The notes beneath the pieces were generated by a model. The model was given only the letters and a program-made list of their open reading frames with translations, did not search any database and was not told the origin of the DNA. A stretch of 64,000 nt of DNA from Nitrospirota bacterium. GTDB lineage: Bacteria > Nitrospirota > Leptospirillia > Leptospirillales > Leptospirillaceae. Where the stretch lies: assembly GCA_021826965.1 (NCBI GenBank), contig JAKAYA010000002.1:1-64000 (forward strand). The letters are read 5' to 3'. Within the stretch, counting starts at the first letter, position 1. Each line of letters starts with the position of its first letter. Positions 53,522 through 57,256 of the stretch are shown here, in pieces. The translations under genes and the position numbers were made by a program.

Positions 53522-53857
53522 TTATTTTTTTTCACGGAAAAAACGGAAGCGGCTGCTAAAAAATTCACGAAATTTTTCAATATCCTCCGCACCCAGTCTT
53601 TCGTCGATTTTTTCGGTCTGGAGCGGCTCGATATGGTATCCGGAAGACTTCAGAATCTTCAGGATGTCCAGAAGGGTTTTTTGGGTGAAGATCTGCTGTG
53701 CCTGCACTTCTTCCATCTGAAACACGTACGCCAGATTTTTCCGGAGGGCCGGATAGGACTTTTCGATGTACAGCTTGGCTTCCTCCGTCGTATCGAAGGT
53801 GTAGCTGATATCATCGTTATACGGGTCCAGGACCCGGTAACGAGTGCTGGAACTCAT
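53522..53857 (-). CDS. Small protein of unknown function, last gene of RHH-led cluster
   Basis: I do not recognise this 111-residue protein. It begins SSSTRYRVLDPYNDDISYTF, with a beta-rich N-terminal half, then helices with a central DTTEEAKLYIEKSYPALRKN and a charged C-terminal coil ending FRFFREKK. ATG 53857 is seven bases after AAGGAG. A longer in-frame start at 53938 has no such site. It is separated from the preceding gene by 77 bp holding two hairpins. No signal peptide is seen, so it is probably cytoplasmic. Confidence 0.65.
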   Translation of the reverse strand: MSSSTRYRVLDPYNDDISYTFDTTEEAKLYIEKSYPALRKNLAYVFQMEEVQAQQIFTQKTLLDILKILKSSGYHIEPLQTEKIDERLGAEDIEKFREFFSSRFRFFREKK

Positions 53858-53902
53858 CAGGAATCTCCTTGGAAAGACAGGACCGGACTTGTCCGGGATC
53901 CG

Positions 53903-53927
53903 GCTTCCGGGCATCCGGCCCGGAAGC
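53903..53927. repeat. Inverted repeat between cluster genes
   Basis: GCTTCCGGG (53903-53911) and CCCGGAAGC (53919-53927) are separated by seven bases. A second hairpin CCGGAC-TT-GTCCGG follows at 53883-53896. They lie between the last two genes of the cluster without a T-run, so an RNA-processing or attenuation role is more likely than full termination. Confidence 0.7.
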
Positions 53928-53934
53928 GATGGGT

Positions 53935-54138
53935 TCATCGCTTGTCAAAAACACGGGGTGCCCGACCGTTTCGGGAATAGGTCGCCCTGCGTGGACCGCT
54001 CAAGTTGGCAATTGTTTTCAGGACCTTGTCGTCGATGGACGGGTCGTCGTCGGGTATGCGGACGGGCGGACCGGCGCCATTGTCTTCTTTCCGCCGGAAC
54101 CGGAACAGGCGGAAGAATCGTTCAAGAATCCGTTTCAT
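53935..54138 (-). CDS. Small basic protein of unknown function
   Basis: This frame of 67 residues begins MKRILERFFRLFRFRRKEDN, a strongly basic amphipathic start that might bind membrane. It then has an acidic PDDDPSIDDKVLKTIANLSG stretch and a basic end. ATG 54138 is 10 bases after GAGGA. It lies two bases from the stop of the VWA gene, consistent with one transcript. I do not know the family. Confidence 0.55.
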   Translation of the reverse strand: MKRILERFFRLFRFRRKEDNGAGPPVRIPDDDPSIDDKVLKTIANLSGPRRATYSRNGRAPRVFDKR

Positions 54139-54140
54139 CG

Positions 54141-54995
54141 TCAGATGTTCCTCCCGGATGCGTCGGAGCAACTGGAGGGAGGAGGCCAGTAGAGCATGGT
54201 GTGGGCATACCGGTCAGGAGAAAACCCGGCATGAGCCTGCAGAAAGTACTGCGTCCAGAAAAATCGGATGTTCTGGAGCATCTCCAGGGACGGAGCCTTG
54301 GCTCCGACGACGTACACGCAAATCCCTTTCATGTCCGGAATCAGGCCAAGCTTTTTTTCATGGGTCAGGATGACGCTTCGGAGATGGTCATTCCAGCGCA
54401 CGTGATTGAATCGCCAGTTTGCGTCTTCCTCGATCATGTCGGAGAGGATGACCAGGATCTTTTGGTCTTTGACTCTGTCGAAGAACAGGCTGGACGCGTA
54501 GATCGCACCGAACAGATCCGTGCTCTGGGCCGTGGGTTTTGCCTTGAGGGCGGCGTCGACCTTCTGGAACAGTTCGGAGACTTTTTTCTTGCGATCATCC
54601 TGTTGCTGGGCGAGGGTATCCTTGTAGACCGCCTCGTTCGTTTCCAGCGGATTATAGGGGGGAGGTTTCGGCAGGTCGAGCGATGCCACGAAGTCGAAAT
54701 CGGCATCCGATTCTCCGGTGATCAGCGCCAACCGGAATTTGTCTCCTGCACCCAGGGAATCCACGATTTTCCGGATCGCTTCGGAAAAGACCGTGTTCTG
54801 GTCCTTGACGCTCGCGGTTTTGTCCAGCAGGATCAGAACCGTCTTGTGGTGATGGATTTCCGGTGCGACGGCGGACTTGGAGGCTCCGGAATTGCCGGCG
54901 GCCGTGGCCTTTGCTCCCTTGTCGTGATGACTGCAGGCTGCCAGAAACAGAGACACGAGCAGTGTCGGCCAGAGAATCAGGCTGTGTTTTTGCAT
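54141..54995 (-). CDS. VWA-domain lipoprotein
   Basis: This 284-residue exported lipoprotein has the lipobox SLFLAAC with Cys at residue 21. A von Willebrand factor A domain starts at about residue 51. The metal site (MIDAS) is intact: LLDKTAS (Asp58, Thr60, Ser62), TDLFGA (Thr159) and LSDMIEE (Asp186). Such domains bind partner proteins through a metal ion. It lies between the four-helix membrane gene and the small basic gene. The natural partner is unknown. Confidence 0.8.
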   Translation of the reverse strand: MQKHSLILWPTLLVSLFLAACSHHDKGAKATAAGNSGASKSAVAPEIHHHKTVLILLDKTASVKDQNTVFSEAIRKIVDSLGAGDKFRLALITGESDADFDFVASLDLPKPPPYNPLETNEAVYKDTLAQQQDDRKKKVSELFQKVDAALKAKPTAQSTDLFGAIYASSLFFDRVKDQKILVILSDMIEEDANWRFNHVRWNDHLRSVILTHEKKLGLIPDMKGICVYVVGAKAPSLEMLQNIRFFWTQYFLQAHAGFSPDRYAHTMLYWPPPSSCSDASGRNI

Positions 54996-55015
54996 GGAAA
55001 TGTCTCCTCTAATCG

Positions 55016-56068
55016 TCAGATATCGTCAGGATTCTCGGTGACTGCGTCCCAGAGTTTGGCCTGCGGAAACTCCGGCGGTCGGTTGAAGACAAGAGGGACC
55101 GGATTGGGGCTTCTGGCATTGGAGTTGGCCTGTCGATACAGATAAATCAGGGATAGCGTCCGGGCACGCTCCGCTTCGATGCGGGCCGAAGCCACCCGGA
55201 GAACGGCGTTCAAGCGGCTTGCCGTTTCCGAATATGTAACCAGAAGGGGTTTCCGTTTTTGCTCCAGCGTGATGATGGAGCGGCGAAGATGGTCGAGCTT
55301 CTCGTCGGGGTCGTGCGACATGTACGAAGTGACCAGAGCGGCCGAGAAGACCAGGAGATTCAAGGCGAAAATCGAATACCCCAGGGCTTTCGGATCCGAC
55401 CCCATGGCGTTCTGGATATGTCCGCCGGTTTCGAGGTAGACGGAGCGGACGTAAGTCACGGCTCCGAGGGCTCCTCCGATGGAGACCGGCATCAGGCCGC
55501 CGACGATGATGTTTCCGGCGAGCCTTGGCACGCCGTGCCGGAGCTGAATGCCGCTGTACATGGCCAGGAGAGGAATTGTGACGGCCAAAGTCGAACTCAT
55601 GATGTAGGTCATCAGTTCCGGTTCGCCGAACATCCGGAAAACGATGGCGTTCAGCGGAAACTCGCCAAACCCCAGAAAAATGATGATCCCCCAGTGAAAA
55701 ATCTTGTTCAGGGGAACGATGAAATCCCGGTCGAGCTGCTTTTTCCGGTCTTCTACACGGTCCCGGACGTTGCGCCAGCGGGTGTTGATGTTGGAGAGCC
55801 TCGAAATGATCGGCTGGAGTGACTTATTGATTCTGGCCCTGGACTCCTGGGCGCTTTCCACAACCCGGTTGACTCTCTGCTCGCCATAGGAAAGCAGTCC
55901 GAGTTCAAACTGGGAAGGAGCGTAGGCGGTAATTTCCGGAATGCGCTCCTTTCCGTCCTTTTCTCCGATTTCCCGGGCCTTGGCCTCCGAAGAGAAGGAA
56001 GACTCTTCCGGAGGAAGAGGCGGGAGAAGTTTTTCCGGATCGAATTTGTCCGATGAAAAAAAGTTCAT
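55016..56068 (-). CDS. Four-helix membrane protein with coiled-coil arms
   Basis: I do not recognise this 350-residue protein. A Glu/Pro-rich N-terminus is followed by a coiled segment (VVESAQESRARINKSLQPII). Four hydrophobic helices then lie at about residues 127-252 (e.g. PVSIGGALGAVTYV, LLVFSAALVTSYM). A second charged helix (DEKLDHLRRSIITLEQKRKP) follows. Both ends are probably cytoplasmic. It starts 11 bases after the coiled-coil gene stop and could pair with that protein and the VWA lipoprotein. Confidence 0.65.
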   Translation of the reverse strand: MNFFSSDKFDPEKLLPPLPPEESSFSSEAKAREIGEKDGKERIPEITAYAPSQFELGLLSYGEQRVNRVVESAQESRARINKSLQPIISRLSNINTRWRNVRDRVEDRKKQLDRDFIVPLNKIFHWGIIIFLGFGEFPLNAIVFRMFGEPELMTYIMSSTLAVTIPLLAMYSGIQLRHGVPRLAGNIIVGGLMPVSIGGALGAVTYVRSVYLETGGHIQNAMGSDPKALGYSIFALNLLVFSAALVTSYMSHDPDEKLDHLRRSIITLEQKRKPLLVTYSETASRLNAVLRVASARIEAERARTLSLIYLYRQANSNARSPNPVPLVFNRPPEFPQAKLWDAVTENPDDI

Positions 56069-56079
56069 GAGAGTGTCTC

Positions 56080-56403
56080 CTATTCTTCCAGACCTTCGGA
56101 CAACTTGGCCAGAATGGCCTTCGTGTCGTCCGAAATCATCCGGACACGGTCCATGATGGATTGCTCAAGGGCTGCGAGTTCCCGCTCCTTGGTGACCATG
56201 GCCTGCTGGCGCGTCTTGATTTCCGCCAGCAGGGAATGGGTATCTTCCAGTCCCTTGACGACTTCCAGCCGCTGGGTCGTGATTTCGACGCCACGGCGCT
56301 GCAATTCGGACATCTGGTCGTTGTTCTGCTGGAGATGCGCCAGCATCTCGTAATATTCCTCGACCGACCGGGATATCTGCAGCAGGGTTTTTTTGGTGAT
56401 CAT
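56080..56403 (-). CDS. Coiled-coil protein of unknown function
   Basis: This 107-residue product is predicted to be almost entirely helical with heptad character (VEEYYEMLAHLQQNNDQMSE, VVKGLEDTHSLLAEIKTRQQ). It has no signal peptide or membrane helix and is likely a cytoplasmic dimer. AAGGAG lies before the ATG. It follows the RHH gene after a 170-bp AT-rich gap and precedes the membrane protein by 11 bp. Confidence 0.65.
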   Translation of the reverse strand: MITKKTLLQISRSVEEYYEMLAHLQQNNDQMSELQRRGVEITTQRLEVVKGLEDTHSLLAEIKTRQQAMVTKERELAALEQSIMDRVRMISDDTKAILAKLSEGLEE

Positions 56404-56573
56404 CGCGATTTCTCCTTCCGGGGTTCTGTCGTTTTCGTCCTCAAAGCCCGACGCCCCGCTTGAACCAGACTCCGGTTCTTCGATCTTGAGAGCCTGGCGG
56501 GACAGATCTGCTTTTCATTAACAATCAATAAATATGTTCATGAAGTTTCTTATTGAAAAAGTTTTAAGGTTTC

Positions 56574-56753
56574 TCATTCGGCATTCTGCTTCTCCTTCCG
56601 TTGGGGTTGTTCGACGAGGATCGCTTCGCTGGATTGCAGGACCTCTTGCAGGAGGAAGCAAATCTCGTTGTTCAGGGAGCGCTTGTGCTTTCGGGCCAGC
56701 ACCCTTACTCGCCAGTAGATGTTTTCATCCAGACGCAGCGTGAACCTTTTCAT
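56574..56753 (-). CDS. Arc-like ribbon-helix-helix DNA-binding protein
   Basis: This 59-codon minus-strand frame encodes MKRFTLRLDENIYWRVRVLA followed by a KHKRSLNNEICFLLQEVL stretch. That is the Arc/CopG pattern: one beta strand (FTLRLDE) and two helices around RSLNNEI. It is probably a dimeric autorepressor of the downstream genes. The ATG at 56753 has no Shine-Dalgarno site, in line with a leaderless transcript. Chance is unlikely because the whole length fits the fold. Confidence 0.8.
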   Translation of the reverse strand: MKRFTLRLDENIYWRVRVLARKHKRSLNNEICFLLQEVLQSSEAILVEQPQRKEKQNAE

Positions 56754-56787
56754 GGTGTAATAGTAGCACCATTGTGACGTACGTCAA
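56752..56787 (-). promoter_or_regulatory. Palindrome-covered promoter of the RHH-led cluster
   Basis: On the minus strand TTGACG (56787-56782), a 16-bp spacer and TACTAT (56765-56760) form a promoter whose start would fall on or next to the ATG of the RHH gene. The perfect palindrome TGACGTACGTCA (56775-56786) overlaps the -35 box. The inverted repeat ATGGTG/CACCAT (56752-56757 and 56767-56772) overlaps the -10 box and the start codon. Both are candidate autorepression sites. Confidence 0.6.
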
Positions 56788-57256
56788 GCATTATTTTTGA
56801 TAAATTAAATTAATAATAAAATTAAAATATAAAATTATTGAAAAATATGAATTTTATCGGGAGGAAAATCAGGGATGAACTTCCCTTGCGGATTTTTCAA
56901 GGGAATGCCTGAATTCACCGCACCCGACAAGGACTTTTCGGTTTGTTGCCCATTTTTAATGATCGGGAACACAGGAGAAAATTTCGGATCCGGAATGAGA
57001 AAAGAATTGACTCGCCAGAATATTCGGGTAATCTTAAAAAATACTGAGAAAATACTGTGATCCCAGTGGAGAAATGGAACCTCCCGGTCCCTGAAGGCTG
57101 GCCTGGAGGGTTCCCGGGATCGTTCTGATTCACCGGATAGGTCAGAGAGTGGAGGGCGCCCGGGTTGAAGTCCGACTTATCTCTTTTCTTTTTGGTAGAG
57201 CCTTTCTTCCAGAGGCTTTTTTCCGGAGGACGGTCGGCCGGGCGGTGTTTTCGACG
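56788..57256. other. AT-rich intergenic region
   Basis: This is about 470 bases between the RHH cluster and the histidine kinase gene. The first 80 bases are strongly AT-rich and likely hold upstream promoter elements of the divergent RHH gene. A small frame lies at 56875-57060 (separate entry). The rest shows an imperfect inverted repeat (GGAACCTCC and GGAGGGTTCC) near 57075-57120 and nothing else that I can support. Confidence 0.5.
56875..57060 (+). CDS. Possible small protein
   Basis: A 61-codon frame starts at ATG 56875, eight bases after a strong GGGAGGA site. It encodes NFPCGFFKGMPEFTAPDKDF and a basic C-terminus. I recognise no family, and the base composition is lower in GC than the flanking genes. 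The ribosome site is the only positive evidence, so this may not be a gene. Confidence 0.25.
   Translation: MNFPCGFFKGMPEFTAPDKDFSVCCPFLMIGNTGENFGSGMRKELTRQNIRVILKNTEKIL

Follow-up and report, generated by a model that had tools for sequence, protein, structure and literature searches.

The window analysed here, a 64,000-nucleotide stretch of DNA, lies on contig G000:C44 of a Leptospirillum-type genome; bacteria of this type are acid-loving. Within it, six open reading frames (ORFs) follow one another on the minus strand in the order ribbon–helix–helix (RHH) regulator, coil protein, membrane protein (memb), von Willebrand factor A (VWA) protein and two small proteins. The first four are found side by side again in further genera and families, which bears out the proposal in a first-pass annotation of an undescribed, operon-like membrane/VWA system. 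The six-gene order given there is confirmed by the ORF coordinates; the intergenic gaps are 170, 11, 20, 2 and 77 bp from 5′ to 3′. The features are the following.

56754..56787, minus strand: RHH promoter and putative operator, a promoter-like site with a similar layout in other genomes
56574..56753, minus strand: RHH regulator, 59 amino acids, Arc-like, PF03869 above cut-off
56080..56403, minus strand: coil protein P0001, soluble, 107 amino acids, no family, homologues 5′ of memb
55016..56068, minus strand: memb (P0002), 350 amino acids, four transmembrane (TM) helices from hydropathy and low-confidence AlphaFold2 helices, no family
54141..54995, minus strand: VWA protein P0003, 284 amino acids, predicted exported lipoprotein, from its fold, PF13519 in relatives and invariant residues
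53935..54138, minus strand: P0004, small basic protein, 67 amino acids, no family
53522..53857, minus strand: P0005, small protein, 111 amino acids, no family above cut-off

A GGAG, GAGGAG or AAGGAG motif precedes the genes of the coil protein, memb, VWA and P0005. For P0005 the ATG at 53857, with AAGGAG ahead of it, is preferable to a start at 53938, and for P0004 the preferred ATG at 54138 lies 2 bp past the VWA stop codon.

The RHH product matches PF03869 with an E value of 4.4e-6 and 26.9 bits, above the Pfam cut-off of 20.4, as expected for the regulator that had been placed at the head of the cluster. Its gene is the first of the operon in genera g1, g2, g4 and g5 and in four genomes of family f10. 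The promoter in the window is composed of TTGACG (56787–56782), a 16 bp spacer and TACTAT (56765–56760), followed after 6 nt by the ATG. The inverted repeat CAC-AATG-GTG (56776–56767) is located within the spacer, and the palindrome TGACGTACGTCA is found at 56786–56775. In the genomes compared, the −10 element sits 6 or 7 bases before the ATG and most have a TTGAC −35 element; the g4 promoters are near-identical (TTGACA..CACCA..AGTGTTARAATGACAyyATG), with a CACCA..AGTG inverted repeat in the spacer. Because the −10 element is only six or seven bases ahead of the start codon, the RHH mRNA is predicted to be leaderless. The inverted repeat is a putative operator through which RHH may regulate its own gene. 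The family, the position as first gene and the promoter inverted repeat are shared with Arc-like RHH repressors (PF03869); unlike these, RHH here heads an envelope operon, and the operator is putative. The gap between the RHH and coil genes is 170 bp in the window versus 0–56 bp in g2 and g5, and a second promoter-like site was looked for in the window gap without one being found. A very A+T-rich stretch (56790–56870) lies just 5′ of the RHH promoter and is also present in the other compared genomes.

The coil protein, memb, P0004 and P0005 have no family match above cut-off in Pfam or NCBIfam, and PHROGs and PADLOC gave no convincing match for any of the four. PADLOC gave coil-level matches only for P0001 (E 1.7e-3, Zorya) and none for memb or VWA. 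Homologues of the coil protein are found 5′ of memb in g1, g2, g4 and g5 and in families f10 and f43. The most striking conservation is seen when locus L061 is compared with L053, L057, L060 and L063: the coil protein is identical at 110 of 110 residues at only 59–69% identity of the third codon positions, memb is 87–97% identical and VWA 72–85%. For the pair L061 and L063, the identities are 79% for NAD synthetase, 64% for an alcohol-dehydrogenase-like protein and 46% for RecD. Complete amino-acid identity at this level of third-position divergence therefore indicates extreme purifying selection; by these rates the coil protein is exceptionally constrained and an old component of these genomes. 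The invariance is unequal among comparisons: the coil proteins of the window and genome G095 are 97.2% identical (ribosomal protein S3, 92%), and those of the window and L047 90.7%. The coils of g1, g2 and g5 share about 18% identity with those of g4, yet align end to end without gaps up to the tail and occupy the same operon position. In g4 genomes a coil paralogue is also found near def, fmt, rpe and mre-type genes (L114–L118; names by eye). Elsewhere, an RHH–coil pair (L113, 7844–8423) and a coil gene (L112, 3491–3832) occur without memb or VWA.

The prediction of a four-helix membrane protein agrees with the four hydrophobic segments of memb. Hydropathy and a low-confidence AlphaFold2 model place the TM helices at about residues 123–145, 150–171, 183–210 and 228–250. 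An N-terminal coil (about 51–122) runs into TM1 and a C-terminal coil spans about 254–318. Both coils are probably cytosolic, since the short outer loops hold few positive charges. The invariant residues are Asp38 and Gly39, which form a DG motif near the N-terminus, Glu136 and Asn140 in TM1, Phe144, Pro166, Gly173, Arg208 at the end of TM3 and, in the C-terminal part, Tyr311, Arg319, Pro325 and Phe328. A search of PDB sequences with the memb profile yielded nothing beyond chance.

The VWA assignment is sound. In Foldseek the top matches of the P0003 model are VWA domains (E about 5e-5), and the matches include CLCA1, VWF A1, integrin I domains and BatB. PF13519 matches four of 18 relatives, and P0003 itself is matched by no family model. 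Its metal-ion-dependent adhesion site (MIDAS), which had been described as intact, is so: Asp58-x-Thr60-x-Ser62, Thr159 and Asp186 are present, and Asp58, Ser62 and Asp186 are invariant across all aligned relatives. Most rows have Ser or Thr at position 60, with variation in rows of the Gly-Ser type, and Thr159 is near-invariant, with Ser in some distant rows. A C-terminal FWxxYF motif is likewise invariant (Phe246, Trp247, Tyr250 and Phe251). The lipobox read from the window sequence is LAAC, with Cys21 followed by Ser; the lipobox Cys also occurs in g2, g5, G362, G014, G275 and copy 1 of G331, and is missing from the VWA of f19 and G336. At L062 (10354–11209) the VWA frame seems to be split over two overlapping ORFs, possibly by a frameshift or an assembly error.

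Of 296 Nitrospirota genomes searched with single sequences, 19 gave a VWA match and 17 a memb match; in profile searches of 396 genomes the counts were 29 and 22, respectively, some of the matches being weak. The strong memb matches all adjoin VWA except for three second copies (L054, L056 and L058) and one fragment at a contig end. Two genomes (G098 and G103) have a strong VWA match without memb, located at the edge of a contig of less than 4 kb. Uncertain memb matches are those in G306 (over 77 residues) and in G130 (weak). The coil profile, searched within the family only, gave matches in 15 of the 21 genomes, spread over g1, g2, g4 and g5. These matches mostly adjoin memb; g4 has extra paralogues elsewhere, and G074 has only such a paralogue. 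At the coil-bearing loci the coil gene adjoins memb except at L054 and L056.

The order RHH–coil–memb–VWA thus recurs across the Leptospirillaceae (g1, g2, g4 and g5), and in g4 the cluster occupies a fixed chromosomal site beside recCBD. Outside this family, a coil gene lies directly 5′ of memb in G336 (f10) and G362 (f43), and f43 carries coil–memb–VWA. A memb search in the class of G336 added three new f10 genomes, and the complete order RHH–coil–memb–VWA is found in all four f10 genomes. As the new genomes were found by memb alone, their shared gene order is a test that the hypothesis of a joint system could have failed. The genes are therefore conserved together elsewhere, and in the family-library searches they do not all match one known system. 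The suggested link to mobile elements is not supported: the g4 site is fixed, the GC content of the cluster region in the window is ordinary, and memb has no match among plasmid, phage and viral-contig records, although nearby mobility genes were not searched systematically.

In the memb tree as in the VWA tree, a coil-bearing clade (Leptospirillaceae, f10 and f43) stands apart from a coil-less clade, and within the former matching groups are seen in the two trees. The trees conflict within the coil-less clade, where copy 1 of G331 groups with G014 and G275 for memb (99/98) and with the f19 group and the second G331 copy for VWA (98/99). Three coil-less memb–VWA loci lie beside or near type III CRISPR genes. 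At L120 (G331:C62) a Cas10 gene with a GGDD motif begins about 280 bp past VWA and several RAMPs are present; at L065 (G275) bPH2, Cas10 and RAMPs are located 3′ of VWA, and the contig carries an RT-Cas1 gene at a greater distance; and in G014 (contig C1; L064/L124) about 1 kb separates memb from a Cas6-RT-Cas1 gene, which is followed by an array of 68 repeat copies, with Cmr genes including a Cmr2-type Cas10 within about 16 kb. RT-Cas1 fusions are thus on the same stretch in two of the three CRISPR-linked loci. Coil-less loci other than these three, the f19 members among them, neighbour regulators of the XRE type (as in f19) or of the Xre/MbcA type. At L119 (6390–6977) the product of a gene adjoining a memb–VWA pair resembles, by eye, an ADP-ribosyltransferase-type protein and has no Pfam match. 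One distant relative of VWA alone was found in Aeromonas caviae (NZ_AP026896.1, L067 4280–8375), 3′ of genes for an OmpA-domain protein and for a large membrane protein, the latter unrelated to memb according to hhalign.

We propose, with confidence that is evenly balanced, that RHH controls a four-gene operon for a three-part envelope complex that serves as a housekeeping scaffold or as a binding or tension sensor. In this model memb would be the hub between the coil protein inside and VWA outside. The near-invariant coil protein would dock onto its two cytosolic coiled arms, the invariant Glu136/Asn140 pair and Arg208 would lie within its membrane core, and the exported VWA would meet it on the outer side, where the metal site may bind memb loops or an envelope ligand. 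RHH, by repressing its own promoter, would set the dose of the operon. The scaffold or sensor would thereby tie a cytosolic coil assembly to the envelope rather than act as an accessory weapon. The model is consistent with the adjacency of VWA and of the coil gene to memb, the f10 gene order, the agreement of the trees, the shared promoter, the invariant MIDAS core and TM polar residues, the invariance of the coil protein and the fixed g4 site. A housekeeping role in particular is suggested because of the constraint on the coil protein and memb, the g4 site by recCBD and the presence in four genera. In a broader version, which we regard as improbable, the system would be an ancient envelope machine of the Nitrospirota, centred on a coil protein of near-histone invariance, with the memb–VWA core separately recruited to type III (RT-Cas1) CRISPR.

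Several observations weigh against the proposed complex. The AlphaFold2 models were built from three-row alignments, which limits their quality, and they are weak (pLDDT 52 for memb and 60 for VWA). The VWA of g4 is without the lipobox Cys. The second memb copies of g4 at L054, L056 and L058 have no VWA, and the first two also have no adjacent coil gene, so a three-part complex may not be obligate. Genus g3, which includes a single-contig genome, gave no coil, memb or VWA match in profile searches, and by that measure the system is dispensable there. Lastly, the CRISPR neighbourhood of the coil-less relatives suggests another use of the same memb–VWA core.

For this last reason a link to defence is the main rival. 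The memb–VWA pair would then be a defence or stress membrane effector triggered by infection, with the coil protein and RHH replacing the CRISPR trigger in the Leptospirillaceae. We consider this unlikely. It agrees with the type III CRISPR genes at L120, L065 and in G014, with the XRE-type and Xre/MbcA-type regulators beside other coil-less loci and with the vWA genes with transmembrane partners that have been reported near CRISPR loci (PMC10910872). However, the presence of the coil clade in four genera, its fixed g4 site and its extreme purifying selection are unlike typical defence genes, PADLOC matches are at coil level only, and a Cas10 search of the window's genome gave no match. An adjacent Cas10 or RAMP gene, as expected of a type III CRISPR accessory, is thus seen at L065 and L120 and is near in G014. 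The published UAS series of vWA/transmembrane modules (PMC10910872) resembles the coil-less pair beside type III CRISPR, a likeness drawn from description only, and may include it; the version in the window is without a CRISPR link.

The preferred scaffold or sensor may also be set against two further roles. The VWA protein could be an adhesin or an assembly factor for the cell surface, with memb and the coil protein as anchoring helpers. VWA adhesins are common, and the predicted export, the intact MIDAS and the lipobox followed by Ser would suit such a role; no secretion ATPase, pilin, usher or outer-membrane channel is recognised beside the copies read, however, and the coil protein, the most conserved part, has no signal peptide, which leaves this reading with a low probability. 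Similarly low is the probability of a cell-shape or cell-wall scaffold, in which the coil protein polymerises under the membrane like bacterial coiled-coil cytoskeletal proteins. Leptospirillum cells are curved or spiral, the invariance of the coil protein fits multi-contact assemblies and, in several g4 genomes, the coil paralogue precedes the def–fmt–rpe–mre type cluster named by eye, but at L115 and L118 a gap of 230–260 bp separates it from the next gene and the mre genes are several kb away, a loose link. A toxin–antitoxin-like unit of an RHH antitoxin and a small toxic partner would account for RHH as first gene and for the lone RHH–coil pair of L113, but is rejected as highly improbable on the conservation of the coil protein, which exceeds that of ribosomal S3; the coil protein also has no toxin-family match above cut-off and shares its operon with two envelope genes.

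None of the known systems tested fits the operon. VWA/MIDAS proteins (PF13519) share the fold and the DxS/TxS...T...D metal site with P0003, whereas this small exported VWA has its own C-terminal FWxxYF signature and a four-TM coil protein of no known family as its partner. VWA–MoxR systems likewise pair a VWA protein with partner proteins, but no AAA+ MoxR ATPase was recognised among the operon genes or scanned neighbours. Zorya (ZorA/ZorB) and other MotA/ExbB-type systems also have a membrane protein with cytosolic coils, in line with the weak coil-level PADLOC matches; here the operon has no MotA/ExbB or OmpA domain and the partner is a VWA protein. A Zorya assignment was rejected, the similarity being confined to the coil regions. 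With coil and memb in no described family of Pfam, NCBIfam, PHROGs and PADLOC, the gene families and the operon appear to be new, with the proviso that a library search is not proof of no prior sighting. The literature searches turned up no study of these genes in Leptospirillum.

A cytosolic coil protein that stays fixed while housekeeping enzymes drift to 46–79% identity presumably lies at the core of an important assembly. The operon also offers a compact test case for a metal-dependent exported VWA protein that would signal across the membrane to a coil in the cytosol. An envelope complex would be connected to adaptive immunity if this core is also the one at work in the relatives beside CRISPR genes.

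Of the six-gene system as first described, the joint conservation of the first four genes stands, while the two small 3′ genes are restricted to some lineages. Relatives of P0004 are found in g1, g2 and g5 only and those of P0005 in g1 and g5 only, the latter about 55% identical and at the equivalent position in two g5 genomes. By this distribution, P0004 and P0005 are lineage-restricted extras outside the conserved four-gene system. The cluster is flanked by a bioD-like gene and a histidine-kinase-like gene, both named by eye.

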